A stretch of DNA of 64,000 nt, taken from contig NC_049987.1 of NCBI RefSeq assembly GCF_000003815.2, positions 4,883,341 through 4,947,340 on the forward strand, read 5' to 3'. Numbering within the stretch: position 1 is the first letter of the stretch; every line of letters begins with the position of its first letter. The DNA is from Branchiostoma floridae (taxonomy: Eukaryota; Chordata; Leptocardii; Amphioxiformes; Branchiostomatidae). The notes under the pieces were generated by a model that did no database searches, was not told the origin of the DNA, and was given only the letters and a program-made list of their open reading frames with translations. Below, in pieces: positions 19,569 to 63,131 of the stretch. The translations under genes and the position numbers were made by a program.

Positions 19569-19910
19569 GTAAGTCAGGTAAGTTTTGTGCGGCAGGTATA
19601 TAGGTCATGGGATTCATATACGGTTCCTTCTTAGCTCGAGTCTAAACTTCCAACCTAACGTTCCTTAAAGTTTAATATTAAAGTGTCGTACCCAACGCAT
19701 CTTAATGTCAGCATTGGGCAATAATTCTCTCCTAAGGATCCTGTAAGGGGGTAACCTTGTGATTGACATCAGTTTGATGAGTTTGATCAAAGAAATTTGA
19801 AGCTAAGTGAAATATTGTTGTTATTGTTATTGTTATTGGGTGGGCCGACTACTCACTCTTTGCAGCCAGGGGCTGAATTGCGAGGAGCTTACAATAGGCA
19901 GGGCTAAATC

Positions 19911-30893: not shown

Positions 30894-31025
30894 TTAGGAT
30901 GACTTCGGATGTGACAAGATGGAGTCGAGGACTGACTCCACCAGACTCTCTGTAGTGGTCTCCACCACGATCTGTGGGACGGCTACAGGCTTCTCCTCTG
31001 CCGCGTCATGGCCCTGGATCACAGC
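30894..31025 (-). CDS. Giant repeat gene, exon 7: C-terminus
   Basis: The acceptor is CCTTACTGCCTTCTCAG, phase 0. It encodes AVIQGHDAAEEKPVAVPQIV, VETTTESLVESVLDSILSHP, KSS and TAA at 30896-30894. No canonical AATAAA is visible soon after the stop. ATTAAA- and CATAAA-type variants lie on the minus strand at about 30615 and 30790. Confidence 0.65.
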   Translation of the reverse strand, partial: AVIQGHDAAEEKPVAVPQIVVETTTESLVESVLDSILSHPKSS

Positions 31026-34000
31026 CTGAGAAGGCAGTAAGGCCATAGTTATTACCTTGTGTATACTGTATACATACAGACATAACGCTTGTTCACTTTT
31101 ATTCGAGGGGAATCCTACATCCGTTGTACCTAAAAACAGGATAATTAGGGATATCACGTTGATGGACGGTGGTTTAAACTTGCATTTTTTTTTCACATAA
31201 TGCAGTTTGAGACCACCGTCCGTCGTCTTGATATCCCTAAATACCCTGGTGTTAAATACAACGGATAAAGGTTACCCCACAAATAAAGGTGAACTAGCGT
31301 TACATAGTCATACACTATCGAGTTGTAGCAAGGAAATTAAAAGCTCCTTGGTTGTAGCACCACTAAACCCTTATGTCAAGGATTTGCAACGTAAACATCA
31401 AGACCACAGAGCACCCAGTGCCAAAGATTGAAAATTCCTACTGCAGTTACTGTACCAAGGCCAAATCACCCCACCTACCAACCTGCTACATACTGTCTCA
31501 ATCCATACATCGGATCATGATATACTGTAAATGCATTTAAGTTCGCGGGGGATTTAATTTCGCGGTAGCGGGGAAAAGGACTTTTCGCGGTGGTTTCAAT
31601 TTCGCGGTAACACCATAGACTGCAGTCTAATACCATAATAGAAAACTGTTCGCGGTGGTTTAAGTTCGCGAAAACCGCGAACATTAATCCACCGCGAACA
31701 TTTCTGCATTTGCAGTATACCCCAAAACATAATTCAGGCTTTATATGCAGACTATAGATGCAGAATACAGTGACTGATGAGGATGATGATTCAGACCGAA
31801 ACAGTAATCCACTTTTTCATGGAGGCAACTATTGACGGATGTGCGGCATACCTCTAAGGCGTCCTGAATGTTGTCCACCGCCGATCCCAGGGAGTTCACG
31901 GCAACGGAGAGCTCCTGCACTGCGCTCTGTTTAATGGCGTCCTCGCGGGCTTCATCGATCGTTTGGATGGCGTGTTGGAGAGCGTCTTCAGCGGACGTAC
32001 CCTTCACCTTCCCCGCCGCCCCATTCAGGACGACCAGGGCCTTCGACATGACCTCGATCACTTGGTCCCTATTGAGGGAACCGGGGAAATGTAAGTCACT
32101 GTCAATCAAATGTGATTTTAAAAACTCTATTGTTGACAACATGTGCGTTAACATTCTGTACAAAAGGAACGAAACTGTAGTATCTATTTATTACTTTCTA
32201 CATGTATCAACCCAATCCACAGTGTGAGAAATAGGCACAGGGGTCAAGACATTTCTGAAACATGTTAGGATCAAACATTCAGCTTTAGTAATTTGTACCT
32301 AGGAGCCAGGTTTCCATGTTTCTATGGTTATGATGTGCTGAGAGATTTAGATGTTGTGTTCTGTGTTTAATTCATTTTCTTTATCCACGGTATCCGACAG
32401 TTTACCGGGACAAATTTGTGACTTCGGAGCCCGGCCGGGGTTACATCCCCTTCGAATACCGGTGCAAATGGAACCGTAGCATAAGGCCACAGCAAGTAAA
32501 TTTTATGGATGACATCAGCGCGCGCATTAATTTTCGCCTGATTTCAGAAGAAGAAAAAACAAGAATTTTTGTCTTCTTTAGGGATGGTCAACATGAACAT
32601 AAAGTACCAAAATGAGCAAATATATTGTGTTGTAGGTTAATAATTGTACTTGTACAAGTGACACTTGCGAGGTACCCAAGACTGTAGTTGTAGAAAACTT
32701 GTTGGATAGTTGTAAAAGTGACACCGATATGGAAGCCATGAGTGTGGTTACCAACTTTGTTTGTGATGCCAGTCTGCCACACTAGTGTCCACACTTTTGT
32801 CCCTTTTACCACACCAGTGCATAAATACAGGAATGAATGCATTGTTGGCTCTGACACCATGTTTTGTCCCTTTAATTATTTTTACAACAGTCATCACAAC
32901 TTTATAGTGCCTATTTTTTAAAACGCACTCATCTTGTTGTTTTTTTCGCCCTATCACACTATTTTTGCAGTCTGTAGAGGATGTCAGCCATAAAATTTAC
33001 TTGCTGTGGCCTAAACAGCGAAGAAACAACGGTCAGCATTTGTAGAACGAACCTATCCTCGCTCCCCAGGTCCGAGTGGATTCCCTCGGCCGCTTTGTCC
33101 ACAGCAGCGGCGGCAGCTGCCACTGACTCCGCACTACTTGCCTGCTCCACTCCGGACAGACCCTGCAGTAACACATCCATCCTGTCCCCCTTCGTACCTC
33201 CTGTGGCGGTTCCGGCTACCCCCAATGCCTGTGTCAACGGTACGGAGAAAACATTCGTATCTACAACAACACAAGGTGCGTTGAACAAAGTAAATTCTTT
33301 AGTAAACGTTTGGACGACCATCTGTCGCCTTCATCAGTACAAAATGAAGCAAATACTATCGGTGCTATATGAACTTCGACAGAGTCGGTGCATTTTGTAC
33401 TGATGAAGGCGACAGATGGTCGTTGAAACATTTACTGAAGAAATAAGGGAAGGTTGTGTAACGAAGAATACTTTGTTCAATTGAAATACCAACCTGATGA
33501 AACCATTTGCGGAAACACAAGGTACGGTTGTACAATTTAAGCTTTGCTCAAACTCAAAAACAAACGCATCCTGGACTTTCAGTCGATTTTGCTGACCTTC
33601 ATCAGATATCTAAATCAGTGCGCTGACTTTCGACAGGTTGTGCATTTTGGATACGCAGCAGGACTTTTTTGTGAGGGCTGCAATGGAGGTTATCATGCAT
33701 TAGGGCCCATCTACCCATAGTGACGGTGCACTACAAACTAACAAAGTGAATGCAGTGAATCAGACATCTGATGAATTCGGCGAGATCGACTGAGAATTCG
33801 TGATGAGTGTTTCTCTTTGTGGTGCCACAAAGCTCAAGTTTCTCAAATACAGATTCTACCAACACAGATGAGCTTTCATTCGGACATATTGTATGTTTTG
33901 CAATTTGAAAAAAAAACGCCAATAGGTTTCAAATGGTACTGATTTGGTAAACAGTTTTAGCCCTTTTGTTGACTACCCATCCATTGACGACGATCATGTT

Positions 34001-37000
34001 AAATATATGCATAAACATCCGATCTATTTTCAGTCTGATTAAGTAATTGTAAGCTATAAAATATATATCGTACAGCAGCATTAACATATACATAGAAAAA
34101 CTCATACTGAAAAACAGGCGTCTGTACCTGGAGAACAGAACTTGACTCTGAAGATGTCCCTCCTGTATTGAGAGCGGTGAGTACCCCAATCAGCTTCTGC
34201 CTGTCACTGTCCTTTTCTTGTTCCTTTACGGCGTTTTGTAAGGCAGCGATTATGAGAGCAAGTGTGTTGTCCCCTGTTCCACTGAAGTAACCACTGGCGA
34301 AATCTACCGTTGATACAGTAGTGGCCATCTTGGAGGTGGATTCCTGTACAAGTTGCTTGAGCTTGGTAACAGCGTTTGTTGGTGATTCTGCAAGGGCTTG
34401 TAACGCTGGTAACAAGTCTGTTGTATCTAGGCTGTATTTGGCAAACGCAACACCCAGAAGAAGCTGCTGCTTGTCCACTGACGACATGTCTGCCTTTTCC
34501 ATAATCACGTCCGTGATAGCCTGAATTGTCTGTCCAGTGCGAAAAGCTAGCGACTGTCTGATTTGTTGAGACTGCTGAGGACTTAACACGCCCTGAGTTG
34601 CTAGGCTATTTGCCAAGGATTGGATCTGGAAGAGAGTAGTTGCCTTCTCCTGCATAACCATGAGAGCTTTGGTATGTGCGCTTTCCCTAGATATGGTGAA
34701 GGCACGTAATACATCTCTAACGTCACGCACGTGAACCTGGCGCGAAAATACGTCAACGTTGTCGAGTACCGAATTCTCAGCTCCAACGAGACGTAGAACA
34801 TTTTTAAGCGCCCTGCTTGGCTCTTGTTGCAAGGACGATGCTAGAGTTTGTCCCTGTTCCGCTGTTATCACGCCCTTGGTTGTCAGTTGCTGCATAATTG
34901 TAAAGGTCTGGACAGTAAATGCCCGTTTATAAATGATGTTCACGATACTGCCTACAGCGTCGTTATATGATCTGTCAAGTGCGGACAACACCACTTTGAT
35001 GTACCCTTTGTCAACATGATATGACATCTTATCAACCATTCCTATGATGATAAGCTGCTCAGAACTCAGAGTGACTCTGTCTTTCAAAACATCTGAAATG
35101 GTCTTCAACCCAAAATCAGAGGAGGTCGTATGTGCATTTCTAATGGACTGATATTCGATGTCACTGATTTTCCCACTCTGTAATAAGTTGGACAAAATCG
35201 TATTCACATCGTCATCGTTACCAAACCCGGGGAGCCCTGGAGTCTGAACAACATCTCCCGTTATAATTGTTTCCTGTTGGGTGGAACCAGTAAAGTGAAC
35301 GCTAACTGTTTGTCCGGTTTTCCGTCCGACCGTCTGGGTGATGGTGGACATTGCCTGCTGGGACGAGGTTTGCCAGGCTTGCACAATTGACGCCACGTCT
35401 TGGCTTCCCAGCCTGTCCTTGTTGTTTTGCACCACGGTGACCAGACTCTGTCGGTCTGTGTCAGATAGGCCTACTTTCTGTCCCACCACACGTATGATGG
35501 TCTGGACGGCGTCACCTGGAGATGTTTCAAATGAAGCAGTGATCTTGTCCTTTTCGTCTTCCGTCAGCCGACCCAGCGATGTCATGGTCTGGATGACGGT
35601 TTTGGAAGTCTGAGTAGCCTGTGTCTTCTTTTGTGTGGTCTCTTGGAGAACAGTTTGTAGTACCTGCATTGCCTGCTGTGGACTTTGCTGCAATCCAGTC
35701 AACACCTTGCTGACCTGAGTTCGAGTCAGGTCACCTTGTACCTTTTTAATGGTCTGTATTGCCTGCAACTGACCAAGGGGCGTTTGGCCAGCTTTGTCGC
35801 CCACCGTCTGCACAAGTTTTGTCAAAGCTGCCGAGGGCGACTCTTGTACCGCCGTCTGGATGGCTTGACTCTCTGGTTGTGTCAAAACGCCCTGAAGCTG
35901 CACACTCTGTAGGACAGATTGCGCCTGCTGTACTGTTTGCTGCACTTCGGCTTGCTGGACCTGTTGCTGCGGAAATAGGGGCTGTTGGACGACCTGTTGG
36001 GTGGAACCAGTAAAGTGAACGCTAACTGTTTGTCCGGTTTTCCGTCCAACCGTCTGGGTGATGGTGGACATTGCCTGCTGTGGCGAGGTTTGCCAGGCTT
36101 GCACAATTGAGGCCACGTCTTGGCTTCCCAGCCTGTCCTTGTTGTTTTGCACCACGGTGACCAGACTCTGTCGGTCTGTGTCAGATAGGCCTACTTTCTG
36201 TCCCACCACACCTATGATGGTCTGGACGGCGTCACCTGGAGATGTTTCAAATGAAGCAGTGATCTTGTCCTTTTCGTCTTCCGTCAGCCGACCCAGCGAT
36301 GTCATGGTCTGGATGACGGTTTTGGAAGTCTGAGTAGCCTGTATCTTCTTTTGTGTGGTCTCTTGGAGAACAGTTTGTAGTACCTGCATTGCCTGCTGTG
36401 GACTTTGCTGCAATCCAGTCAACACCTTGCTGACCTGAGTTCGAGTCAGGTCACCTTGTACCTTTTTAATGGTCTGTATTGCCTGCAACTGATCAGGGGG
36501 CGTTTGGCCAGCTGTGTCGCCCACCGTCTGCACAAGTTTTGTCAAAGCTGCCGAGGGCGACTCTTGTACCGCCGTCTGGATGGCTTGACTCTCTGGTTGT
36601 GTCAAAACGCCCTGAAGCTGCACACTCTGTAGGACAGATTGCGCCTGCTGTACTGTTTGCTGCACTTCGGCTTGCTGGACCTGTTGCTGCGGAAAAAGTG
36701 GCTGTTGGACGACCTGTTGGGTGGAACCAGTAAAGTGAACGCTAACTGTTTGTCCGGTTTTCCGTCCAACCGTCTGGGTGATGGTGGACATTGCCTGCTG
36801 GGGCGAGGTTTGCCAGGCTTGCACAATTGAGGCCACGTCTTGGCTTCCCAGCCTGTCCTTGTTGTTTTGCACCACGGTGACCAGACTCTGTCGGTCTGTG
36901 TCAGATAGGCCTACTTTCTGTCCCACCACACGTATGATGGTCTGGACGGCGTCACCTGGAGATGTTTCAAATGAAGCAGTGATCTTGTCCTTTTCGTCTT

Positions 37001-40000
37001 TCGTCAGCCGACCCAGCGATGTCATGGTCTGGATGACGGTTTTGGAAGTCTGAGTAGCCTGTGTCTTCTTTTGTGTGGTCTCTTGGAGAACAGTTTGTAG
37101 TACCTGCATTGCCTGCTGTGGACTTTGCTGCAATCCAGTCAACACCTTGCTGACCTGAGTTCGAGTCAGGTCACCTTGTACCTTTTTAATGGTCTGTATT
37201 GCCTGCAACTGATCAAGGGGCGTTTGGCCAGCTTTGTCGCCCACCGTCTGCACAAGTTTTGTCAAAGCTGCCGAGGGCGACTCTTGTACCGCCGTCTGGA
37301 TGGCTTGACTCTCTGGTTGTGTCAAAACGCCCTGAAGCTGCACACTCTGTAGGACAGATTGCGCCTGCTGTACTATTTGCTGCACTTCGGCTTGCTGGAC
37401 CTGTTGCTGCGGAAATAGGGGCTGTTGCAAGGCCTGTTGGGTGGAACCAGTAAAGTGAACGCTAACTGTTTGTCCAGTTTTCCGTCCAACCGTCTGGGTG
37501 ATGGTGGACATTGCCTGCTGGGGCGAGGTTTGCCAGGCTTGCACAATTGAGGCCACGTCTTGGCTTCCCAGCCTGTCCTTGTTGTTTTGCACCACGGTGA
37601 CCAGACTCTGTCGGTCTGTGTCAGATAGGCCTACTTTCTGTCCCACCACACGTATGATGGTCTGGACGGCGTCACCTGGAGATGTTTCAAATGAAGCAGT
37701 GATCTTGTCATTTTCGTCTTCCGTCAGTCGACCCAGCGATGTCATGGTCTGGATGACGGTTTTGGAAGTCTGAGTAGCCTGTGTCTTCTTTTGTGTGGTC
37801 TCTTGGAGAACAGTTTGAAGTACCTGCATTGCCTGCTGTGGACTTTGCTGCAATCCAGTCAACACCTTGCTGACCTGAGTTCGAGTCAGGTCACCTTGAA
37901 CCTTTTTGATGGTCTGTATTGCCTGCAACTGACCAAGGGGCGTTTGGCCAGCTTTGTCGCCCACCGTCTGCACAAGTTTTGTCAAAGCTGCCGAGGGCGA
38001 CTCTTGTACCGCCGTCTGGATGGCTTGACTCTCTGGTTGTGTCAAAACGCCCTGAAGCTGCACACTCTGTAGGACAGATTGCGCCTGCTGTACTGTTTGC
38101 TGCACTTCGGCTTGATGGACCTGTTGCTGCGGAAATAGGGGCTGTTGGACGACCTGTTGGGTGGAACCAGTAAAGTGAACGCTAACTGTTTGTCCGGTTT
38201 TCCGTCCAACCGTCTGGGTGATGGTGGACATTGCCTGCTGGGGCGAGGTTTGCCAGGCTTGCACAATTGAGGCCACGTCTTGGCTTCCCAGCCTGTCCTT
38301 GTTGTTTTGCACCACGGTGACCAGACTCTGTCGGTCTGTGTCAGATAGGCCTACTTTCTGTCCCACCACACGTATGATGGTCTGGACGGCGTCACCTGGA
38401 GATGTTTCAAATGAATCAGTGATCTTGTCCTTTTCGTCTTCCGTCAGCCGACCCAGCGATGTCATGGTCTGGATGACGGTTTTGGAAGTCTGAGTAGCCT
38501 GTGTCTTCTTTAGTGTGGTCTCTTGGAGAACAGTTTGTAGTACCTGCATTGCCTGCTGTGGACTTTGCTGCAATCCAGTCAACACCTTGCTGACCTGAGT
38601 TCGAGTCAGGTCACCTTGTACCTTTTTAATGGTCTGTATTGCCTGCAACTGATCAAGGGGCGTTTGGCCAGCTTTGTCGCCCACCGTCTGCACAAGTTTT
38701 GTCAAAGCTGCCGAGGGCGACTCTTGTACCGCCGTCTGGATGGCTTGACTCTCTGGTTGTGTCAAAACTGCCTGAAGCTGCACACTCTGTAGGACAGATT
38801 GCGCCTGCTGTACTGTTTGCTGCACTTCGGCTTGATGGACCTGTTGCTGCGGAAATAGGGGCTGTTGGACGACCTGTTGGGTGGAACCAGTAAAGTGAAC
38901 GCTAACTGTTTGTCCGGTTTTCCGTCCAACCGTCTGGGTGATGGTGGACATTGCCTGCTGGGGCGAGGTTTGCCAGGCTTGCACAATTGAGGCCACGTCT
39001 TGGCTTCCCAGCCTGTCCTTGTTGTTTTGCACCACGGTGACCAGACTCTGTCGGTCTGTGTCAGATAGGCCTACTTTCTGTCCCACCACACGTATGATGG
39101 TCTGGACGGCGTCACCTGGAGATGTTTCAAATGAATCAGTGATCTTGTCCTTTTCGTCTTCCGTCAGTCGACCCAGCGATGTCATGGTCTGGATGACGGT
39201 TTTGGAAGTCTGAGTAGCCTGTGTCTTCTTTTGTGTGGTCTCTTGGAGAACAGTTTGTAGTACCTGCATTGCCTGCTGTGGACTTTGCTGCAATCCAGTC
39301 AACACCTTGCTGACCTGAGTTCGAGTCAGGTCACCTTGTACCTTTTTAATGGTCTGTATTGCCTGCAACTGATCAAGGGGCGTTTGGCCAGCTTTGTCGC
39401 CCACCGTCTGCACAAGTTTTGTCAAAGCTGCCGAGGACGACTCTTGTACCGCCGTCTGGATGGCTTGACTCTCTGGTTGTGTCAAAACGCCCTGAAGCTG
39501 CACACTCTGTAGGACAGATTGCGCCTGCTGTACTGTTTGCTGCACTTCGGCTTGATGGACCTGTTGCTGCGGAAATAGGGGCTGTTGGACGACCTGTTGG
39601 GTGGAACCAGTAAAGTGAACGCTAACTGTTTGTCCGGTTTTCCGTCCAACCGTCTGGGTGATGGTGGACATTGCCTGCTGGGGCGAGGTTTGCCAGGCTT
39701 GCACAATTGAGGCCACGTCTTGGCTTCCCAGCCTGTCCTTGTTGTTTTGCACCACGGTGACCAGACTCTGTCGGTCTGTGTCAGATAGGCCTACTTTCTG
39801 TCCCACCACACGTATGATGGTCTGGACGCCGTCACCTGGAGATGTTTCAAATGAAGCAGTGATCTTGTCCTTTTCGTCTTCCGTCAGTCGACCCAGCGAT
39901 GTCATGGTCTGGATGACGGTTTGGAAGTCTGAGTAGCCTGTGTCTTCTTTAGTGTGGTCTCTTGGAGAACAGTTTGTAGTACCTGCATTGCCTGCTGTGG

Positions 40001-43000: not shown

Positions 43001-46000
43001 CCACCGTCTGCACAAGTTTTGTCAAAGCTGCCGAGGGCGACTCTTGTACCGCCGTCTGGATGGCTTGACTCTCTGGTTGTGTCAAAACGCCCTGAAGCTG
43101 CACACTCTGTAGGACAGATTGCGCCTGCTGTACTGTTTGCTGCACTTCGGCTTGCTGGACCTGTTGCTGCGGAAATAGCGGGCTGTTGCAAGGCCTGTTG
43201 GGTGGACCAGTAAAGTGAACGCTAACTGTTTGTCCGGTTTTCCGTCCACCGTCTGGGTGATGGTGGACATTGCCTGCTGGGGCGAGGTTTGCCAGGCTTG
43301 CACAATTGAGGCCACGTCTTGGCTTCCCAGCCTGTCCTTGTTGTTTTGCACCACGGTGACCAGACTCTGTCGGTCTGTGTCAGATAGGCCTACTTTCTGT
43401 CCCACCACACGTATGATGGTCTGGACGGCGTCACCTGGAGATGTTTCAAATGAATCAGTGATCTTGTCCTTTTCGTCTTCCGTCAGCCGACCCAGCGATG
43501 TCATGGTCTGGATGACGGTTTTGGAAGTCTGAGTAGCCTGTGTCTTCTTTTGTGTGGTCTCTTGGAGAACAGTTTGTAGTACCTGCATTGCCTGCTGTGG
43601 ACTTTGCTGCAATCCAGTCAACACCTTGCTGATCTGAGTTCGAGTCAGGTCACCTTGTACCTTTTTAATGGTCTGTATTGCCTGCAACTGATCAAGGGGC
43701 GTTTGGCCAGCTTTGTCGCCCACCGTCTGCACAAGTTTTGTCAAAGCTGCCGAGGGCGACTCTTGTACCGCCGTCTGGATGGCTTGACTCTCTGGTTGTG
43801 TCAAAACGCCCTGAAGCTGCACACTCTGTAGGACAGATTGCGCCTGCTGTACTGTTTGCTGCACTTCGGCTTGCTGGACCTGTTGCTGCGGAAATAGGGG
43901 CTGTTGGACGACCTGTTGGGTGGAACCAGTAAAGTGAACGCTAACTGTTTGTCCGGTTTTCCGTCCAACCGTCTGGGTGATGGTGGACATTGCCTGCTGG
44001 GGCGAGGTTTGCCAGGCTTGCACAATTGAGGCCACGTCTTGGCTTCCCAGCCTGTCCTTGTTGTTTTGCACCACGGTGACCAGACTCTGTCGGTCTGTGT
44101 CAGATAGGCCCTACTTCTGTCCCCCACACGTATGATGGTCTGGACGGCGTCACCTGGAGATGTTTCAAATGAATAAGTGATCTTGTCCCTTTTTCGTCTT
44201 TCCGTCAGGCCGACCCAAGCGATGTCAATGTTCTGGATGACGTTTTTGGAAGTCTGAGTAGCCTGTGTCTTCTTTCGTGTGGTCTCTGGGAGAACAGTTT
44301 GTAGTACCTGCATTGCCTGCTGTGGACTTTGCTGCAATCCAGTCAACACCTTGCTGACCTGAGTTCGAGTCAGGTCACCTTGTACCTTTTTAATGGTCTG
44401 TATTGCCTGCAACTGATCAAGGGGCGTTTGGCCAGCTTTGTCGCCCACCGTCTGCACAAGTTTTGTCAAAGCTGCCGAGGGCGACTCTTGTACCGCCGTC
44501 TGGATGGCTTGACTCTCTGGTTGTGTCAAAACGCCCTGAAGCTGCACACTCTGTAGGACAGATTGCGCCTGCTGTACTGTTTGCTGCACTTCGGCTTGAT
44601 GGACCTGTTGCTGCGGAAATAGGGGCTGTTGCAAGGCCTGTTGGGTGGAACCAGTAAAGTGAACGCTAACTGTTTGTCCGGTTTTCCGTCCAACCGTCTG
44701 GGTGATGGTGGACATTGCCTGCTGGGGCGAGGTTTGCCAGGCTTGCACAATTGAGGCCACGTCTTGGCTTCCCAGCCTGTCCTTGTTGTTTTGCACCACG
44801 GTGACCAGACTCTGTCGGTCTGTGTCAGATAGGCCTACTTTCTGTCCCACCACACGTATGATGGTCTGGACGGCGTCACCTGGAGATGTTTCAAATGAAT
44901 CAGTGATCTTGTCCTTTTCGTCTTCCGTCAGTCGACCCAGCGATGTCATGGTCTGGATGACGGTTTTGGAAGTCTGAGTAGCCTGTGTCTTCTTTTGTGT
45001 GGTCTCTTGGAGAACAGTTTGAAGTACCTGCATTGCCTGCTGTGGACTTTGCTGCAATCCAGTCAACACCTTGCTGACCTGAGTTCGAGTCAGGTCACCT
45101 TGAACCTTTTTGATGGTCTGTATTGCCTGCAACTGACCAAGGGGCGTTTGGCCAGCTTTGTCGCCCACCGTCTGCACAAGTTTTGTCAAAGCTGCCGAGG
45201 GCGACTCTTGTACCGCCGTCTGGATGGCTTGACTCTCTGGTTGTGTCAAAACGCCCTGAAGCTGCGCGTTTTGCACGACAGATTGCAGTTGCTGTACTGG
45301 TGGTTGCACTTCGACTTGCTGCGGAATTAGTTGCTGCTGGACTCCATGTTGGGTCGACCCAGGTAAGGAAAAGCCTTGTGATCGTTGTACTATCTGCAGA
45401 ATTATCCTTAGACTAGCTTGAGGGGACTTTTCTAGTGCTTCCACGACTTTCTCAACATCATTCTGTGTGAGTGATGTTTGTATATTTTGCAACCTTTGAC
45501 TTATGGTATCGGTATTCACAAGTACCCCGTTTGCCCTTATTACGTTAAGAACGACCTGTAGTGCCTCTAGAGGTGACTTTTGCATTGCTTGTACTATTGC
45601 CACGGCATCTTGGGGTGACACTGAATACGTTGACACCATACTTGATGTTCCGATGTTACCCATGCCTTGCGGTCCAAAGGAACCGATTGGTGACAGTTCG
45701 CCTTGTGGTATCCCTTGTTGACCGTAAATGGTATGAAGGGCATTGAAAATGCTCAACAAGAAAGCGTTATCAATATCCTCTCTGCTAGGTGACTGGTAGC
45801 TCGCCGCCATGATTTGCTGCACGGATGGTTCAAGTACAGTTTGTAGACCTCCTGTGGCGGAGATGATGTCCAAAACTGATGGCTGTAGTCTGATATTTTG
45901 ACCCAGTACGGTGGCTAGGTATTTCTGGACCGCGCTCTGCCTACTTATACCATGTCGTCCAATCTTAGGGATGACGATAATGGTTAATGCTTCCGCACCT

Positions 46001-49000
46001 AAGGCACGCTCAAGAGAATCCACTGCAGACAGCAAGTCATTTTGGTCAGTTTGACCTCCTGGTGCTTGTAGATTGGCATATACGGAGCTAAGTTCTCGTA
46101 AGATATCTTTGTACAGGATGGTCTGCTCTTTAGGGACAGTAGGCATTCCGGAATCATAGATGGAATTCTGTGCAGACTTCGTACACCCCTGTAATATGGC
46201 CAGCATAGCCAGCTTACATGCAGACATCAGATTACCATCTCTTGTCATGATGTTTTTCTTTTCCTGTGCTTGATTGTTTTCCTCGATGAGTCGCTTTCGC
46301 ATGACCTCCAGGAGGGCAAACTGTTGTAGTAACCGGTCCATGTCAGTCTGACTGTTGTCTGAGGGATCTGGATCGGGCCCTTTTTAGAATTAAGATAGAT
46401 TTTGAAAAAAAAACATTAATAGCGTTGCATTTTTTTCCACTTTTATTCAACCTTAGCTTGCTACACCTTCAACCTATAGCCGTTTTGGATACTTCAAGGG
46501 CATATCACTTCTTATCTAGTTCTCTTGCACAGGAAAAGTGTCCTGGACGATGAGCGTTTTATGCAATGACAGGAAGCCTATATAGGCAAGGCACATGTTG
46601 TTCCTAAATCAAATACAACAAAGATTCAAATTAAAACCAAGCTATCCTTCTGGAAGGATACAGAAAATGTGCTGGAAGGATACAAAGAAAGCGTAAAGAT
46701 AAGGAAGAGGTTACATATGGTACTGATCATGATGGCAAAGATTGTTCATTAGCCCACAGCACCTTGTTTTGGTCTCACCTTCACTGTTGTCCTCCAAAAT
46801 CATCTTTACTGAATCCAACACATTGTCCTCATCTATAACTGAAGTACTCGCTGCATCTGGATCGCTGAAGGTCTTCTCCTTCTTTTCTATAAGATAGAAA
46901 ATTTCGATATTGTCAGATGACACACAAACGCATCACATCAATCATACTCGATTGTGGTATCATCTGGGTCCTCTGTCGCCTACGTGTATTTGGCATCAGA
47001 ATATTAGTTACAGCACCAAAGCATGAATAGTTTGCACCGGAACTTCTGCTGTGATTCTTCCCAAGTAGGCGAAAGAAGCACAAAATATCAGGGGGTCACT
47101 GGTAGTTTCGCTATATTCTTAGTTTGTTACATGGCAAGTCGTTTCTCTAAATTGCAAGTCATTTCGCTACTACATGGCAAGTGGTTTGATTCGCTACATG
47201 GCAACTTGCCATGTGGCAAGTCATTTCGCTACATGACAAGTCATTTCACTACAGGGCAAGTCGTTTCGCTACATGGCAAGTCGTTTCTCTACATGGCAAG
47301 TCATTTCGCCACATGACATGTCATTTCGCTACATGGCAATTCATTTCGCTACATGGTTATTCATTTCGCTACATTCCAAGTCGTTTCGCTACATTCCAAG
47401 TCGTTTCGGTACATTGCAAGTCGTTTCGTTACATGGCAAGTGATTTCGCCACATGGCATGTTATTTCGCCACATGGCATGTTATTTCGCTACATAGTTAG
47501 TCATTTCCCTCAATGGCAGTTCGTTTCGCTACATTGTGGGTCGTTTCGCAAAATGGCAAGTGATTTCGCCACATGGCATGTCATTTCGATACATAGTTAG
47601 TCATTTCGCTCAATGGCAGTTCGTTTCTCTACATTGTGAGTCGTTTCGCTACATGGCAAATCATTTCACTACTACATGGCAAGTCGTTTCGCTACATGGC
47701 AATTCATTTTGCTACATGGTTATTCATTTCGCTACATTCCAAGTCGTTTCGCTACATTCCAAGTCGTTTCGCCACATGGCAAGTCGTTTCGCCACATGGC
47801 ATGTCATTTCGATACATAGTTAGTCATTTCGCTACATGGCAGTTCGTTTCGCTACATTGTGCGTCGTTTCGCTACATGGCAAGTCGTTTCGCTACATGGC
47901 AAATCATTTCACTACTACATGGCAAGTCGTTTCGCTACATGCACGGCGGTCGGTTGCTAGGGTATTCTTTCCCGTTGCTATGCGCGTTCGATAGAATATC
48001 GGGTTACTGGAGGCCTACTTTTGGCTACCCGTAAAATATTTGAAAATAAACAAAATGTTTTGACAAGGAAAATGTTTTCGAAATAAGATTAAATTAGCAA
48101 TTTTACATACATTGAATGTTGTCGTTTGAATTTAGATAGCTGTTTTGTTTCGATGTTACTCAAAAAGACGATCATTTTCTGTTTTCAGGAAGGCCTTTAA
48201 TTTGACCAAACTCTTGATAAGATAGACCGCATGTATCATCGAAAATTCTCGTTTTTTATATTTTTCGTCATCTATGAGGAAAATAAAACTTTCTGTTTTG
48301 GGGATTTTTTAATTTTTGATTTAAAGCAAAGTTACAGTCGAAAATATGCGTAAAAATGGCATTTTTCGCACTTAATTACCGATAATTCAAAATCGAAGGC
48401 ATTTTCTACAAATCCCAAAAACAGAAATCTCGGGAAAATCATGGCGGTCATTTTGAGCCGTCAACGAGTTAATTTGGACTCTTCTTGGTCGCGATCTTAA
48501 ACGAAGTTTGCACGCATGTCATGCCGCACGGATAGCGAGAGGGTGTAATTGATACCGATGTAAACAACACTTACAATATTCAAGGTCACCAACACAAACG
48601 TCAGTAGCTTCGTTAAATATCACAGGTCCCAAACAAAGTGATGGATGTACTGTCCCGAAAATTGTTTATATTAGTGAAAAACTATCTTTTTTGGCTGATT
48701 CAAGGTAGTTTGGCAAAAAAGGCCAGAGAGCGGTGTTTACCGGCAACGACCGCAGATGACCCCAAATAGAACACGGGTTCGGTTCGAAATACGTCAGATG
48801 GAATATCGTGGAACAAGGTTCCAATTCGGCTAGACATGGGAGGTTTTGAGCCCGTATTTGACCACCGTGATGGTTATTCATTTCGCTACATTCCAAGTCG
48901 TTTCGCTACATTGCAAGTCGTTTCGCTACATTGCAAGTCGTTTCGCTACATGGCAAGTCATTTCTCCACATGGCAAGTCGTTTCGCCACATGGCATGTCA

Positions 49001-52000
49001 TTTCGCTACATAGTCATTTCGCTACATGTCAGTTCGTTTCGCTACATTCCAAGTTCGTTTCGCTACATGGCAAGTCGTTTGGCTACATGGCAAATCATCT
49101 CACTACTACATGCTACATGGCAAGTTATTTCGCTACATCGTTAATCATTTCGCTACATGGCAAGTCGTTTCGCTACATTGCAAGTCGTTTCGCTACATTG
49201 CAAGTCGTTTCGCTACATGGCAAGTCATTTCTCCACATGGCAAGTCGTTTCGCCACATGGCATGTCATTTCGCTACATAGTCATTTCGCTACATGTCAGT
49301 TCGTTTCGCTACATTCCAAGTTCGTTTCGCTACATGGCAAGTCGTTTGGCTACATGGCAAATCATCTCACTACTACATGCTACATGGCAAGTTATTTCGC
49401 TACATCGTTAATCATTTCGCTACATGGCAAGTCGTTTCGCTACTGATTGGGAAATTAAGTCTCTACATGGCAAATCGTTTTTCTATATGGCAAGTCATTT
49501 CGCTATATGCCAAGTCGTTTCCCTACATTGCAAGTCGTTTTGCTACATTGCAAGTCGTTTCGCTACATGGCAAGTAATTTCGCCATGTGACAAGTGGTTT
49601 CGGTATATTGCAAAACATTGCAACTCGTTTCGCTACATTTAAATGTTGTTTCTCTCTAAGTAGACAATAGCTTTGGAAACGGGTGCCCTGCAATCGCGTA
49701 TGTATTTACAGGCATTGGATGACATGACACCTGTCTTAGTGAGGTCCGTATGTCACAACAGAGCAATATCGACATTGCCAGGCTTTTCTCACCAGTTTCG
49801 ATGTCATGCCAAATTATTTCTGCACAGATAGAACCCTAGAGAAAGAAAGTGAAATATTCCAAGAAGACAATACCATTTGATTGTTCATCCTCACGATTAG
49901 ATGGTGCATCTACCGAGGCTGGGCTTTGTTCCCTTTGCTTGTGGATTTGCTTGAAGATGCGAAGGACGTGCTGTAGCCTTTCCATCGTTTCTCGGTGTAG
50001 ATCTCCATGCTCTGTGTCTTCCGCGATGTTTTCGACCTCCTTCTTACGTGCAGAGTCGTCATGCTTCAACCCGTCAGGTTCGGCAACAATGTTCCGCTCG
50101 TCGTCTTTCGTTGTTGTTGCTTCACCTGTTAGAAATGGCATACAAGAAAAGATAAGCATTCTGTTCAGGTACACAGATTAAGTCTTAACGCCTAAGTCAC
50201 ATATCCAAAATGGGGCCCTTGACAATAGCTTTCGGGAACGAAAAGTATGACATAAAAGACAGCAAACTACAAGAGAATAGTCGTGGGCATTATTTGTGTA
50301 TATAAAGTTTTACGTATACATGTCTATTTTTCGTTTCCACAAACAGCCTAGAAAATTTGACATTTAGCCTCAGTGGGTATCTAAAGTGGGCTTCGAGCTC
50401 TCCTGCTGGCGACAAATTATTCTCCCCTGCGGTCCCCGAGTAAAATAAGTGACCTCTACCAACAAAATTAACGGCCTTGCTCGGAAAGTCACGTCCTCCG
50501 TTCCAAATTAAATTAGATGCCGATTCCATGCTTGAAAGAGTGCATTAAAAGTGTGACGTCATAAATACGTCCAAAGATTGACGCTGCTTCAGGTCAGCTT
50601 GTTGTCACCATACATGTGCATGAGGCCATGAGTAACAACTTTTTGGCAAGCTTTTTTTCGCACAGCACATTAGTTTTGAGGTTGCAACATGATGGCATCC
50701 ATATAATCCAATCAGTATGGCCTAAGGCCATACCAATTTAATTGATTGGTACACGGATTCGCTCGCTCCTATTTTTTGGAAAATAAAATAAAAATAAAAA
50801 TTACCACTCAGCAAATTTTCACCATTTAATGAATTTAACCATTCACCAACTTCCTGGTGTAGCAAATTGGCCTTTATATTATAAGCTCCTTAAAATGTGG
50901 GTATTGTATATTTTTCATTCATGAAGAATGGGACAAACATAAAAACTGACACCACTTTTGTAATTTTCAACGAACAGGTGCTGTTACTGTACAGTAATAG
51001 TGTTTTTGTACGTTTTTCAAGCTGAAAAATTATTATTCTTTATGTTTTGGATTAGCCCTTATCTTTACCCCAACCATTTTACAATTTTTTTTTTTTATTT
51101 TTTTTTCGCCCTTTCGCTCCATATTTTTTATGAAAAAATCCGTGAACCAAGAAATTAAATTGGTGTGGCCTAATAGAGGTATTAAAACCTAAAACCGAGT
51201 TCACGTGCGAAGTCACATATTCAGGTCCGTATGAGTTCCGCATGGAAGTCTTATATCCTCTACCAGGTTCTACCTGGAAAGAATAGAGATTGGACAGATA
51301 TAGCCAGATAACATGCCAAAGGAGTTAGCTGGGTCGCAAACCATTCTCCTTGGCCACTAATTATATAACTCCTGCTAAGCTAATCTGACATGTTATGTGT
51401 CTATATTTATCCAAATTCTACTATTTTTCCAGCGACCTGTGGGGCCTGGTAGAGGCTAAAAATTCCATACGGATCTCATACGGACTTCAATATATACGCA
51501 CGTGTGAACCCGGCTTTAGGTTTTATGGGCCCCTCCCCCAATCATGACCAATGGGAGGGCTTCTTCTTCTTCGTCGTGTCATCACTACACGATGACTTAC
51601 CACACTAGTTAGACTACCTGCACTGTTGAGGGTACCCATTATTATTACAGTCACGTTCTAGGATACGCCTCTAAAAGTTGTCTGCACCATAATTATCTAC
51701 AAGGCCATCGCAAGTTCGCACAGGTCATGGTTTTGACTCTAGTAAACGTTTGCACGTTAAGATACGTGCAATTATTTCTGTAACTGTATCAATATAGCCG
51801 GTATACCCCCCATTCAGCGTAAGCCGGGTTCACACGTGCGTATATATTTTAGTCCGTACGTATGAGATCCGTATAGAATTGTTAGCCTCTGCGTACCAGG
51901 GTCCACAGGTTGCAGGAAAAATGATAGAAATTAGAGAGATATAGAAAGATGATATGCCAGACGATATGCCATACTCCTTGGCCAGCTAACTCCTCTGGCA

Positions 52001-54505
52001 TGCTGTGCATCTAAATTTGTCCAGTTTGTACTAGTTTTACAGTGACCCGTGGAGCCTGGTAGAGGCTAGGAAATCCGTACCAACCTAATACGGTTTCGAA
52101 TATCTACGCACGTGTGAACTCACCTTAACACACCAGCTTCGCAGCCACGCGGCGCGGCAGCAGCTGGTTATATTACACTGAACTACCTGCCACACCTGTC
52201 CTTTGCACATCTGTCTGTAAGATACTGTAAATGCATTAAAGTTCGCTGGGATTTAATTTCGCGGTAGCGGGAAAATGGACTTTTCGCGCTGTTTTTAATT
52301 TCGCGGTAGCACCATGCACTGCAGTCTCTTACTGTTATGGAAAAATGACCGCCGCGAAAACCGCGAACATTAATCCACCGCGAACATTTCTGCATTTACA
52401 GTATTCTATCCAGCGACGATGCCCCTACTGTGATTGGCGAAAACAAATCCCACTCTACGATAGTACGATTTTTAAAAACATTTAGTGTTGATTTTGAGTT
52501 GTGGACTTGCTCTATCCATGAGTTCTGCGAATTCGGATACACGTTTTTTAAGAAGGGGGAAGAGACGTGCAAACAATAGATGTAATAAAAGCATAACCTT
52601 ATCAATGTTTGCCTGTTTGGTAGACGATACATAGAAGTTGTGTATCATAGCTTAAGTCGTTTTGTTTTCCCATGCACTGACAATGTTCAGGACATACGTT
52701 AAGTCACACGTGCGTACATATTCAAGTCCGTATGAGGTCCGTATGGAGTTCTTAGCCTCTTCCAGGCTTCATAGGCCGCTAGGAAAATAAGAGAAACTGG
52801 AGAAATATAGACACATAACATGCCAAAGGAGTTATCTGGCCGAGGAATATGGATTGCGACCAGCTAACTCCGATGACATGTTATCTGGATATGTTTGTCC
52901 AAATGTCTATTACTTTTCCAGCGACCTGTGGAGCCTGATAGAGTCTAAGACTTCCATACGGACCTCATGCGGATTTGAACATATACGTGCGTAAGAACGT
53001 GATGATAATTTACGTAAACGTTTCATGCATGTAACCACTGCATTAAGCCAATTCTGACAAGAACGTGCAAATAAAGATCATTAAACAAACAAAGAAAGAT
53101 TTATCGGCCCTTATCAACACTATTGTAATTGTTTAGGCCTATCGGCACTCATACGCACGAATGGGGCCCCTGTGGATATAGGTTAATGTATTTATTATTG
53201 TCTTTAGTATGTAGCATTGTTAAACTATGCTTAGTTTTTCACGACATTTTATTGGCGTCCATTAAATGGTACTTACTATCTTATTGATTTCTAAACGTTT
53301 AAGAAAGCAAATCAGCTAGTGACTAATGTTACAGTAGTTGTCTGGTGGGCAGTCATGCGCAATGAATTGTGGGTGTGCCTTACTCAAAACAACGACACAA
53401 TGGAGTCTCTCCACACACATGGACGGCGTCCAAAACACGAATTATAAAATTCTGCTCTGAATTATATCAAATCAAATTTTCAAAATTCTTCCTTTGTTTA
53501 AAAGTTGTTGTGTTGGGCAAGGATATAAAGGACACTACCGTTTGTCAAACTGTCAAAAAAGATAAAATATTATGATAAATAGGCCGACCTTACTGACTGA
53601 GGTCGCTAGTAATGCCGGCGGCGGGATAGGACACTATTGTGTTGAAATAGTTTTGAAGACAACTTTTCTCTAAAATTTGCTATGTTGGCACAGGATAGAG
53701 CACTATCGTTTGTCAAACTGTCAAAATATAAAATGCTATAACATAATGATAAATAGGGACGACCTCATTGCTTGAGATCGCTAGCCATGCCTGCGGCACG
53801 ATAGAGCACTATTGTGTTGAAACAATTTTGAAGACAACAAAATTTTAAAGTGGTTGTCTAAGGACGAAGAACAATGTTTTTCGATAGCGTAATAAGAGCA
53901 ATAAGATTTTTAGCCACCGGTTCAGCTCTATGCTTTTCTCAAACTGAGGGTACTTATATCAATGTGTTCAGCGTCTGAGGGGAAATTTCTGGATCGTATT
54001 GAAAAAAGGAAAGGGGGTTCTCTTTTGTTTTGTTTGACCTTGGAGTGGTACGCGACCAGACGCGTTGTTTCATCTAAACAATTTATCAAACACTAATCAT
54101 AATATATTTTTCATGTTTAATGGAATTCACACTGAAGCAAGTCATTTGTACAAACCATTAAACCCGAGCACAATCCATTTTTTGAATGATCAGAAAGTTG
54201 AGGTCAAATCAGTTATTCGTTAAACATCATTGAACGTAGTCTCTACCAGACTGACTACGCTGGCTGTTACAGGAAGAATAATTTGCCAGAAGAGTCTTGA
54301 TACCATAGGAGTTGAAACATGAACCTTAACTTTAGTGTAGACTGACTACCCTAACCAGTTTCCCGATTTTGTTCGGAATTCTATACGATCCCTGCACCCC
54401 CGTAGGAAGGCCTTGTGGAGGCTAATCGTTGAACGTACCTTGGAGTGTGGAGAAACACAGCAGCATACAGGCCACGCACACGGCCCAAACCAGCGGGGAC
54501 GCCAT
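30894..54505 (-). CDS. Giant secreted repeat protein gene, seven coding exons
   Basis: Exons in order: 54505-54439, 50125-49874, 46886-46779, 46379-34128, 33228-33053, 32068-31852, 31025-30894. Every junction is GT-AG and phases agree (1, 1, 1, 0, 2, 0). Coding length as read is 13,204 nt. Setting each tandem unit to 720 bp removes a net four bases and gives 13,200 nt, exactly 4,400 codons with the stop. The product has a signal peptide, an acidic N-terminal region, degenerate helical modules, 14 near-identical 240-residue units, more degenerate modules, and an alanine-rich then acidic C-terminus. No transmembrane segment is seen outside the signal. The array is cysteine-free and about one-fifth glutamine. 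I do not recognise the family. An extracellular structural, adhesive or mucus-type protein is inference. Four register breaks in the array are either sequence errors or real lesions. Confidence 0.75.
31082..31304. mobile_element. Palindromic MITE family M3, copy 3 (intronic)
   Basis: The ends are ATAACGCTTGTTCACTTTTA and, inverted, AAAGGTGAACTAGCGTTAC. The central inverted pair contains GACGGTGGTTTAAAC and TTTGAGACCACCGTCCGTC. It lies in the last intron of the giant gene, 57 bp upstream of exon 7. Confidence 0.8.
31523..31717 (-). mobile_element. MITE family M1, copy 2 (intronic)
   Basis: The ends are TACTGTAAATGCATTTAAGT and, inverted, TTTCTGCATTTGCAGTA, with internal TTCGCGG/CCGCGAA. It is in reverse orientation relative to the copy at 6650 and in the same intron as the M3 copy. 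Confidence 0.85.
31852..32068 (-). CDS. Giant repeat gene, exon 6: helical segment
   Basis: The acceptor is CCCGGTTCCCTCAATAG. Phase 2 completes an arginine codon with exon 5. It encodes DQVIEVMSKALVVLNGAAGK, then AEDALQHAIQTIDEAREDAI and KQSAVQELSVAVNSLGSAVD, ending NIQDALE at donor GTATGC (31851). Regularly spaced Val/Leu/Ala suggest long helices. Confidence 0.7.
32482..33013. mobile_element. MITE family M2, copy 2 (intronic)
   Basis: The ends are TAAGGCCACAGCAAGTAAAT and, inverted, ATTTACTTGCTGTGGCCTA. Its interior is the reverse complement of the copy at 12500-13051. Open frames across it on either strand are element sequence. Confidence 0.85.
33053..33228 (-). CDS. Giant repeat gene, exon 5: Gly/Ala-rich segment
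   Basis: The acceptor TTTTCTCCGTACCGTTGACACAG and phase 0 fit the end of exon 4. It encodes ALGVAGTATGGTKGDRMDVL, LQGLSGVEQASSAESVAAAA, then AAVDKAAEGIHSDLGSED. The donor is GATAG/GTTCGT at 33052, in phase 2. A second possible acceptor 36 bases upstream (TTGTGTTGTTGTAG) would be out of phase. MITE M2 ends only 40 bases beyond the donor. Confidence 0.65.
33285..33610. mobile_element. Inverted repeat with hammerhead-like cores
   Basis: The arms 33285-33345 and 33391-33445 are reverse complements. The right arm (plus strand) has CTGATGA at 33400, a six-pair stem GGCGAC/GTCGTT with loop AGATG, then GAAAC at 33425. A third, reversed relic at 33577-33605 reads CTGATGA...GACTGAAA on the minus strand. 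CUGAUGA, stem II and GAAA are the hammerhead core, known from Penelope-like terminal repeats. It lies in intron 4 of the giant gene. Confidence 0.5.
34128..46379 (-). CDS. Giant repeat gene, exon 4: 12.25-kb repeat exon
   Basis: The acceptor ends CTTAATTCTAAAAAG (46380), and the exon begins in phase with GPDPSDNSQTDMDRLLQQFA. From 46341 to about 45280 it encodes a non-repetitive helical region with degenerate modules (for example MQKSPLEALQVVLNVI, LEKSPQASLRIILQIV). The 14-unit array follows to about 35279. About 380 further residues (from ETIITGDVVQTPGLPGF) contain degenerate modules such as LQQEPSRALKNVLRLVG and LAESPTNAVTKLKQLV. The exon ends SSESSSVLQ at donor CAG/GTACAG (34127). The frame is broken near 39920, 41410, 43178-43250 and 44105-44290. 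Confidence 0.8.
35279..45290 (-). repeat. 720-bp coding tandem array, 14 units
   Basis: The anchor ATGGTGGACATTGCCTGCTG (complement of the coding strand) occurs at 35341, 36061, 36781, 37501, 38221, 38941, 39661, 40380, 41100, 41821, 42541, 43260, 43980 and 44705. Spacing is exactly 720 except 719, 721, 719 and 725 where indels occur. Units differ by only a few bases, and several variants (Asp/Ala in KIT-D/A-SF, His/Gln in QQQV-H/Q-QAEV) cluster in neighbouring units. The first unit's leading part is diverged (LIPQQVEVQPPVQQLQSVV), marking the array edge. Confidence 0.95.
46779..46886 (-). CDS. Giant repeat gene, exon 3: short acidic segment
   Basis: The acceptor is TTTTCTATCTTATAG and the donor GAAG/GTGAGACC. 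The 108-nt exon is symmetric (phase 1-1) and encodes KKEKTFSDPDAASTSVIDED then NVLDSVKMILEDNSE. Intron 2, upstream of it (46887-49873), contains the 20-bp satellite and a CACTA-like insertion. Confidence 0.7.
47110..47941 (+). repeat. 20-bp satellite, left block (intronic)
   Basis: About forty copies of TTTCGCTACATGGCAAGTCG with variants (CCAAGTCG, GTTAGTCA, CACATGGCATG). Because 20 is not a multiple of 3, all plus frames read the same 20-residue cycle, so the long open frames are not genes. It lies in intron 2 of the giant gene. Confidence 0.95.
47942..48869. mobile_element. CACTA-like insertion splitting the satellite
   Basis: The 928-bp element begins CACGGCGGTC and ends GACCACCGTG, the inverted form with one mismatch. 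It is flanked by ATG on both sides (47939-47941 and 48870-48872). CAC ends with a 3-bp target duplication are characteristic of CACTA/EnSpm elements. No transposase is evident, and the interior is AT-rich with several self-similar A/T runs. Confidence 0.75.
48873..49640 (+). repeat. 20-bp satellite, right block with 267-bp higher-order unit
   Basis: It is the same 20-bp motif as the left block. A 267-bp stretch containing the GTCAGTTCG, CAAGTTCG and ACTACTACATGC variants occurs twice in a row (about 48895-49160 and 49162-49428). This shows recent duplication of a multi-copy block. The edges decay at about 49600-49640. Confidence 0.9.
49874..50125 (-). CDS. Giant repeat gene, exon 2: charged segment
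   Basis: The acceptor is CTTGTATGCCATTTCTAACAG and the donor ATG/GTATTG at 49873. The 252-nt exon is symmetric (phase 1-1). It encodes an acidic, charged stretch: EATTTKDDERNIVAEPDGLK, then ETMERLQHVLRIFKQIHKQR as a probable amphipathic helix, then PSNREDEQSN. No cysteine. Confidence 0.75.
50215..50350 (-). mobile_element. MITE family M5, partial copy (intronic)
   Basis: Contains AAAAGTATGACATAAAAGAC, AGAATAGTCGTGGGCATTAT and TTCGTTTCCACAAACAGCC, the reverse complement of the copies at 58090 and 63132. The outer ends are not recognisable. It lies in intron 1 of the giant gene. Confidence 0.65.
50723..51172. mobile_element. Terminal inverted repeat element (AGGCCAYACCAATTTAATT)
   Basis: The left end is TAAGGCCATACCAATTTAAT, then TTGGTACACGGATT. 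The right end, inverted, is TTAGGCCACACCAATTTAAT, then TTGGTTCACGGATT. The interior is A/T-rich with mirrored TCGC blocks. Length about 450 bp, with no coding capacity. It lies in intron 1 of the giant gene. Confidence 0.8.
51183..51525. mobile_element. Palindromic MITE family M4, copy 1
   Basis: The ends are TAAAACCTAAAACCGAGTTC and, inverted, GGGTTCACACGTGCGTATAT with TAAAACCTAAAGCC. Inner mirrored parts are TCCGTATGAG, CTCTACCAGG and CATGCCAAAGGAGTTAGCTG. Copies 2 and 3 lie at 51820-52127 and 52699-53002. Confidence 0.85.
51820..52127. mobile_element. Palindromic MITE family M4, copy 2
   Basis: The ends are TAAGCCGGGTTCACACGTGC and, inverted, TAAGGTGAGTTCACACGTGC. It keeps GGCATGC...CTCTGGCATGC and CCTGGTAGAGGCTAGG as in copy 1. 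Confidence 0.85.
52128..52215 (-). mobile_element. LINE 3' region fragment
   Basis: The reverse complement reads AACCAGCTGCTGCCGCGCCG, GCGAAGCTGGTGTG and a matching upstream stretch. It corresponds to 5225-5315, the junction between the LINE tail and its 56-bp repeat, so it is a second copy of the same LINE 3' region. Confidence 0.6.
52223..52403 (-). mobile_element. MITE family M1, copy 3
   Basis: The ends are TACTGTAAATGCATTAAAGT and, inverted, TTTCTGCATTTACAGTA, with internal TTCGCGG and CCGCGAA. It is inserted between the LINE fragment and later intron sequence of the giant gene. Confidence 0.85.
52699..53002. mobile_element. Palindromic MITE family M4, copy 3
   Basis: The left end is TTAAGTCACACGTGCGTACA. 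The right end, inverted, is CGTTCTTACGCACGTATATG. It has the same mirrored core as copies 1 and 2 (GTCCGTATGAGG, CATGCCAAAGGAGTTATCTG). Confidence 0.8.
53003..54438. repeat. Intron 1 remainder with a local tandem pair
   Basis: 53507-53661 and 53685-53845 are a diverged tandem pair sharing CGTTTGTCAAACTGTCAAAA and CACTATTGTGTTGAAA. Elsewhere in this stretch I see no exon or complete element. It is intron 1 of the giant gene. Confidence 0.55.
54439..54505 (-). CDS. Giant repeat gene, exon 1: signal peptide
   Basis: The ATG at 54505 sits in a strong context (GACCATGG). It encodes MASPLVWAVCVACMLLCFST then LQ and one base of a glycine codon. The hydrophobic core and small residues fit a cleaved signal peptide, with cleavage likely near Gly23. 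The donor is GTACGTTC at 54438. Phase 1 matches the acceptor at 50126, giving LQ-GEATTT. The 4.3-kb intron that follows is filled with MITEs. I see no clear TATA box upstream. The promoter should lie just right of 54540. Confidence 0.7.
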
Positions 54506-62327: not shown

Positions 62328-62424
62328 CTACCCATGAGGCTTGTCCTGTATACGCAAGGCCTGGTCACACTCGTTAATCAGCTCCGTGAAGCCTGGCCGG
62401 GCGGTAGGCTTCCACTCCCAGTAC
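62328..62424 (-). pseudogene. Tyrosine kinase subdomain XI exon, copy 4 (internal deletion)
   Basis: The acceptor is CTATGGTATTGCAG. It reads YWEWKPTARPGFTELINECD then QALRIQDKPHG and stop. An in-frame deletion removed the residues matching ELMCRC, so the helix leading to the C-W motif is lost. Probably not functional in a kinase. Confidence 0.6.
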
Positions 62425-62461
62425 CTGCAATACCATAGAAAGTCGTTAGGGGGCCCATGAT

Positions 62462-62578
62462 CTACCCATGAGACTTGTGTTGTATACGTAGGTCCTGGTC
62501 ACACTCGTTCTAAACAGCTCCGTGAAGCCTGGCCGGGCGGTCGGCTCCCACTCCCAGCACCGGCACATCAACTCGTAC
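62462..62578 (-). pseudogene. Tyrosine kinase subdomain XI exon, copy 3 (frameshifted)
   Basis: The acceptor is CTATGGTACTGCAG. It reads YELMCRCWEWEPTARPGFTE then LF. A two-base insertion (TTTAGAACGAG instead of TTTAACGAG) then shifts the frame. Confidence 0.65.
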
Positions 62579-62615
62579 CTGCAGTACCATAGAAAGTCGT
62601 TAGGGGGCCCATGAT

Positions 62616-62724
62616 CTACCCAAGAGACTTGTCCTGCAGGGCCTGGTCACACTCGTTAAACAGCTCCGTGAAGCCTGGCCGGCTGGTCGGCTCCCACTCC
62701 CAGCACCGGCACATCAACTCGTAC
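62616..62724 (-). CDS. Tyrosine kinase subdomain XI exon, copy 2 (alternative end?)
   Basis: The acceptor is CTATGGTATTGCAG. It reads YELMCRCWEWEPTSRPGFTE, LFNECDQALQDKSLG, then TAG at 62618-62616. It is intact to the stop and identical to copy 5 over the subdomain XI core. If spliced to the exon at 63448 it would give a kinase lacking the acidic tail. It could equally be a non-functional duplicate. Confidence 0.5.
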
Positions 62725-62761
62725 CTGCAATACCATAGAAAGTCGTTAGGGGGCCCATGAT

Positions 62762-62876
62762 CTACCTATGAGACTTGTCTTGTATACGTAGGGCCTGGTC
62801 ACACTCGTTAAGCAGCTCCGTGAAGCCTGGTCGGCTGGTCGGCTCCCACTCCCAGCACCGGCACATCAACTCGTAC
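62762..62876 (-). CDS. Tyrosine kinase subdomain XI exon, copy 1 (alternative end?)
   Basis: The acceptor here differs from the other copies (GTTCCACCTGACAG). It reads YELMCRCWEWEPTSRPGFTE, LLNECDQALRIQDKSHR, then TAG at 62764-62762. It is the first copy met after the exon ending at 63448 and is fully open. A donor-like GTATAC occurs within it (CTAC/GTATAC). Either it terminates a short isoform or it is skipped in favour of copy 5. Confidence 0.5.
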
Positions 62877-63131
62877 CTGTCAGGTGGAACATTGTTGTTG
62901 TTGTTTACCTTATTGTGCCTAGTGCCTAGCAGCCAGTTTCCCTGCAGTTTCTGTAGCAGGGTATGTTTTTTACAGGCAGAGATTGCATTTCCCCTTAAAC
63001 GTAGCTGAGTCACCTACTCGAACACGGGACCCCCATTTTACAATACTTCCGAAAGACACTGGTGCAGCTCCAACCGAGATGCCCTTCCCAGGATTTGAAT
63101 CGGGGTCTTCCAGTTCCCAACTAAGGCTAAA

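Follow-up and report, generated by a model that had tools for sequence, protein, structure and literature searches.

What kind of protein would a lancelet build from fourteen near-identical copies of a 240-residue unit, and how might it work? The question is raised by a locus in a 64,000-nucleotide stretch of the Branchiostoma floridae genome (hereafter the window) whose exons appear to form one gene, encoding a very large, apparently secreted protein of approximately 4,400 amino acids (Table 1). Seven minus-strand exons of compatible phase lead from a start codon at 54505 to a stop codon whose last base is 30894; all six introns carry GT..AG boundaries and the phase agrees throughout the modelled splice joins, as had been put forward in a preliminary description of the locus, which traced seven exons from a signal exon to a stop. 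With the net indels in exon 4 discounted, the predicted protein comprises ~4,399 residues, and it is seemingly secreted, as judged by eye from its signal-peptide-like start. Separately, intron 2 harbors two minisatellite arrays of the same ~20-bp unit, at 47128-47941 (~40 copies) and 48881-49613 (~36 copies), the latter showing a 267-bp higher-order period.

Table 1. Parts of the predicted gene and their positions in the window.
Feature	Position	Strand	Description
Exon 1	54439..54505	(-)	start codon and signal-peptide-like stretch MASPLVWAVCVACMLLCFSTLQ, judged by eye
Exon 2	49874..50125	(-)	acidic, charged head; pI 4.6 after the signal
Intron 2	46887..49873	(-)	contains two arrays of a ~20-bp minisatellite
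Exon 3	46779..46886	(-)	acidic head, continuation
Exon 4	34128..46379	(-)	12,252 bp; holds the 14 units between an N- and a C-terminal region
Non-array N-terminal region	45361..46377	(-)	339 aa, two Cys; last part a diverged relative of the unit
Array of 14 units	35289..45360	(-)	each a Gln/Pro linker and modules R1-R4, ~50 aa each
Error-like cluster in unit 2	44109..44242	(-)	frame-breaking; dense, resembling a poor read end
Unit used for structure prediction	38169..38888	(-)	AF2
Degenerate C-terminal modules	34128..35288	(-)	387 aa; from module alignment
Exon 5	33053..33228	(-)	start of acidic, Ala/Val-rich C-terminal domain
Exon 6	31852..32068	(-)	first base uncertain
Exon 7	30894..31025	(-)	carries the stop codon

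The array dominates exon 4. Its units start (at GSTQ or a shifted equivalent) at 45360, 44652, 43927, 43208, 42488, 41768 and 41047 (units 1-7) and at 40327, 39608, 38888, 38168, 37448, 36728 and 36008 (units 8-14), and the array ends at 35289; the first unit measures 708 bp and the remaining 13 measure 719-725 bp. The 12.25-kb exon with 14 units of 720 bp reported earlier is confirmed in its length and unit count, with the correction that the exon is not one open frame as assembled. Nine of the 14 units (1, 5, 7 and 9-14) are free of frame breaks and encode 240 residues each (236 in unit 1), with no stop, no cysteine, no N-X-S/T sequon and 46-50 Gln per unit, in line with the earlier hand count of about 49 Gln in 240 residues and with the array being described as cysteine-free. 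The unit is rich in Gln, Thr and Val (20% Gln, 5% Lys, 3% Pro), and its pI (8.2 for one unit) compares with 4.6 and 4.3 at the protein ends.

When the units are cut at a different point, 12 of the 14 diverge from the majority in 2-10 alignment columns, the outliers being the unit with the error cluster (25 columns) and the last unit, which runs into unique sequence (181 columns). Leaving out these two, the distinct changes amount to 17 replacement, 11 silent and no stop (expected replacement:silent:stop, 68:27:5), so that the changes among near-identical units are only weakly conservative. Across 13 of the 14 units, 58 of the 78 informative-site pairs fail the four-gamete test, and neighboring units are no more alike than chance (P 0.80). 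The failed pairs fit exchange between units, and a shotgun assembly that shuffled reads of 99%-identical units would look alike; because the two are indistinguishable, no conclusion is drawn on the copy history of the array.

Each unit consists of four related three-helix modules of ~50 residues (z 4.6-10.4 across the six pairs, by shuffling), R1-R3 and R3-R4 being more alike than the other pairs. The single 240-residue repeat of the preliminary description is confirmed as a unit, its four-module composition having been missed. In an alignment of 13 modules that takes in both flanks and whose borders were chosen by eye, identity to the first module is 13-38%. The end of the N-terminal region shares 24 of 86 residues with modules R3R4, and in a search of the lancelet's own genome the N-terminal query matches units from residue ~250 onward (its residues 340-428 being unit 1 itself), while the C-terminal part matches, besides itself, units only (25-27% identity, E 0.007-0.08). 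Because the C-terminal part and the end of the N-terminal region match units in this way, most of exon 4 seems to derive from one module, a suggestion that does not extend to the beginning of the N-terminal region. Over the diverged 34 codons at the start of unit 1, the point estimates of dN and dS are 0.18 and 0.56; between older module pairs, silent sites are saturated or nearly so. The flanks contain no N-X-S/T sequon in 1,020 residues against 6.4 expected by shuffling (P 0.001, in a test picked after the zero had been noticed).

Scored with general position frequencies for splice sites, the donors of exons 1, 3 and 6 rank in the top 1% of GTs (that of exon 1, AAG/GTACGT, within the best 0.4%), whereas that of exon 2 (ATG/GTATTG) is weak, 22% of gene-region GTs scoring equally well, and those of exons 5 and 4 are matched by 14% and 11%, respectively. 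Additionally, an in-frame stop at 32961-32959 means that exon 5 could be terminal or spliced otherwise, giving an alternative 3' end. The splice agreement reported earlier holds for the phases, some of the junctions being weak. These weak donors and the alternative stop could indicate a mis-joined model, in which exons 1-3 or 5-7 would belong to other transcripts and the array would perhaps not be secreted, but this is quite unlikely in view of the strong donors of exons 1, 3 and 6 and the agreement of phase across all six introns. A recent pseudogene would be an alternative of another kind, as exon 4 is covered, as assembled, by five overlapping minus-strand ORFs. The frame is interrupted by length changes in the unit 2 cluster (net +5), around the junction of units 3 and 4 (three indels that net -1), in unit 6 (+1) and in unit 8 (-1), the breaks other than the cluster lying near 43.2, 41.4 and 39.9 kb; all were missed in the preliminary description. 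However, every break falls in the first eight units, and units 9-14, the 2.2 kb of exon 4 that is unique sequence and the remaining exons of the model are clean. Each break is private to one unit, whereas other variants are common to several; the unit 2 cluster, moreover, is dense and resembles a poor read end. This confinement to individual units, with units 9-14 and the unique parts unaffected, makes an error of assembly likelier than decay, and that the breaks are real is improbable.

Of 20 sampled 10-kb stretches from the same genome, 8 contain runs of N, many of them exactly 100 N in length and others long, and these gaps resemble those of a scaffolded shotgun assembly; the window itself has no N runs. 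One sampled 10-kb stretch is N throughout, and part of the N may not represent assembly gaps. One paper describes a B. floridae assembly for which existing shotgun data were reused, haplomerged and scaffolded (PMC7269912). If this is the assembly analysed here, near-identical 720-bp units were pieced together out of short reads, and both the count of 14 and the order of the units are provisional.

The predicted structure of the unit gives a first view of how the protein may be organized. For one unit, AF2 predicts 11 helices (pLDDT 87.9, pTM 0.83) with residues 1-15 below pLDDT 50, from a shallow alignment of 11 window-derived rows (nine near-identical and two diverged), and a helix starts at the Pro of each of the four S-P motifs (58, 110, 164 and 216). 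The preliminary description had proposed helical repeats and the modelling of one unit, and the result is one confident, all-helical bead. A model of two units (480 residues) repeats the bead, with residues 1-22 and 240-261 below pLDDT 50 and a pTM of 0.47; five such runs differ, with mean pLDDT of 80, 78, 71, 61 and 53. As modelled, the two units would look like beads on a flexible string, an arrangement on which the preliminary description was silent and which, together with the frame breaks and the four-module unit, is newly found here. Foldseek returned no PDB match at E <= 0.001 among 224 at E <= 10 (best 50 of 224 inspected) and no significant match among 185 to viral models (best 50 of 185 inspected). 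EbhA of Staphylococcus aureus (2dgj), a giant surface protein formed by a chain of helical modules, appears in the Foldseek list at chance level only (E 2.2, TM 0.13). A new fold is possible for the predicted bead, and is put no more strongly because Foldseek, the sole aligner, can overlook helical repeat folds.

Relatives were sought in Pfam, NCBIfam, PDB, PHROGs, prokaryote and viral contigs and the lancelet's own genome, other animal genomes being outside the scope. No Pfam or NCBIfam family was found above its curated cut-off with queries covering the unit or module, the N- and C-terminal parts, the head and the tail; the best match below cut-off, Phage-MuB_C (E 0.0005), scored 20.3 bits where the cut-off is 25 and was rejected. 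Against PDB sequences, phmmer with one unit gave no match at E <= 1, and the module profile gave three (E 0.9-2.8), with no spidroin among the names. Assignment to any family in Pfam, NCBIfam or PDB was accordingly rejected, every Pfam and NCBIfam match being below cut-off and PDB giving no significant match. PHROGs yielded no match, and with two peptide patterns none of 140 candidate stretches in prokaryote genome contigs and none of 88 in viral contigs was confirmed. In the own genome (513.4 Mb in 431 contigs, the window lying on contig C9), the unit, N-terminal part, C-terminal part and tail gave 19, 15, 13 and 3 matches, respectively, all at this locus, save one chance-level tail match (E 0.7) on contig C2; these queries thus found no second copy of the gene. 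A transposon, phage or bacterial contaminant was rejected in view of the lack of prokaryote and viral relatives in these sets and by the single locus in the own genome; the preliminary description had named a unit matching a transposon or contaminant as the outcome that would speak against it, and no such match appeared. Its view of a protein without known relatives stands as far as Pfam, NCBIfam, PDB sequences and Foldseek are concerned, nothing significant having emerged from them. Likewise, no title on this protein was found in the amphioxus, Branchiostoma or deuterostome literature among the matches listed, which leave most subscription journals uncovered.

Comparison with known repetitive proteins narrows the candidates. 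Pfam holds models for spidroin end domains, and none of them matched the tail or the 263-residue stretch that follows the signal at E <= 1, or the N- and C-terminal parts of exon 4 at E <= 5. On the sequence features tested (end domains and repeat kinship), membership among the spidroins fails. Mucins carry a glycosylated domain rich in Pro, Thr and Ser between Cys-rich ends; 3% Pro, the absence of Cys from the units and the lack of a mucin or VWD domain among the Pfam matches speak against membership here. The architecture of one spidroin is nevertheless close: spider AcSp1 is described in PMC4481645 as at least 14 tandem 200-residue units that form helical globular beads with disordered tails between non-repetitive ends, and as an aciniform spidroin that forms fibres when drawn. 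The lancelet protein, too, is predicted to consist of helical beads and disordered linkers, with 14 units and non-repetitive ends; helical beads with disordered linkers are a feature of AcSp1 and not of all spidroins, and the AF2 models reproduce it. The spider-silk likeness without sequence kinship proposed earlier is in agreement with this common plan (PMC4481645) and the lack of a sequence match. The differences are also clear, since the AcSp1 bead is a 5-helix bundle whereas the lancelet unit has 11 predicted helices in four modules and is Gln/Thr/Val-rich without a sequence match to PDB chains, and the AcSp1 linker is ~63 residues long (PMC5000702), as opposed to ~15-22 here.

On balance, the evidence leans towards a secreted, self-assembling structural protein that works like an aciniform spidroin and is not itself a spidroin. 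The single-copy gene would encode a putative signal peptide, an acidic head and a helical N-terminal region with two cysteines, followed by fourteen 26-kDa helical beads on flexible Gln- and Pro-containing linkers of ~15-22 residues, then degenerate modules and an acidic tail. Such a protein could be stored in soluble form as beads on a string and, once outside the cell, assemble to form a fibre, sheet or gel, the Gln-rich faces and linkers providing many weak contacts or enzymatic Gln-Lys bonds. The end domains of silk proteins have been proposed to control assembly, and by analogy the charged end domains could time it here. The near-identity of the units might be kept by exchange between them together with the need for a regular polymer. 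How the exons are laid out, the repeats and their division into four modules, the modelled beads and flexible linkers and the absence of relatives in the searched sets are computed results. In favor of the reading stand the phase-consistent exons from a signal-like start, the bead and two-unit models, the mutual similarity of the four modules, dN below dS at the start of unit 1, the absence of sequons from flanks and units and of Cys from the units, the pI contrast between ends and unit, and the AcSp1 precedent. Against it count the broken exon 4 as assembled, the weakly conservative changes among units, the missing spidroin end domain, the shallow AF2 alignments and the spread of the two-unit runs. 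The secreted, repetitive structural protein of the preliminary description is supported by the all-helical AF2 bead and the null family and fold searches, its signal peptide being judged by eye. The more specific suggestions of that description, an egg coat, mucus or an adhesive, found no support here.

The odds of the readings considered here overlap and need not sum to one, and two further readings concern function. Semenogelin and involucrin are Gln-rich cross-linked proteins with short, non-globular repeats, and they are precedents for a non-fibrous gel, in which the lancelet protein would be a component of mucus, a feeding net or a coagulum, cross-linked by transglutaminase through its Gln and Lys. 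Like them, it would be secreted or structural with long Gln-rich repeats, and a long, seemingly secreted chain with 20% Gln, 5% Lys and no Cys in its units would suit this role. However, the unit is predicted as a confidently folded bead and not as a disordered Gln-rich chain, and it is not mucin-like (3% Pro, no sequons); such a gel is unlikely, and it is partly a subtype of the self-assembling structural protein preferred here. Egg coats commonly carry rapid concerted repeats, which would favor an egg-coat protein. Nonetheless, no ZP module is among the Pfam matches, which speaks against a ZP egg-coat protein, and the egg coat of B. belcheri is described through five ZP proteins (PMC3543715), although this is a weak point given the 1,247 hits in that study. 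An egg-coat role is highly improbable.

A more specific and rather doubtful proposal is that the protein represents a chordate silk, i.e., an independently evolved extracellular fibre protein whose new-fold bead of four three-helix modules converged on the architecture of spider wrapping silk. The fibre plan of folded beads on a flexible string is already known from that silk; its recurrence in a likely chordate protein of unrelated sequence, with no significant Foldseek match to solved or viral structures, would suggest that such an architecture can evolve more than once. The protein would also offer materials research a new repeat module and open a way into what lancelets secrete.

Elsewhere in the window, ten other ORFs (of 243 of at least 70 aa) gave no Pfam match at E <= 0.01. 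Two short arrays were observed, a 59-bp unit present three times at 100% match (19909-20083) and a 146-bp unit, not a multiple of three, present three times in a GC-rich stretch (62421-62879).
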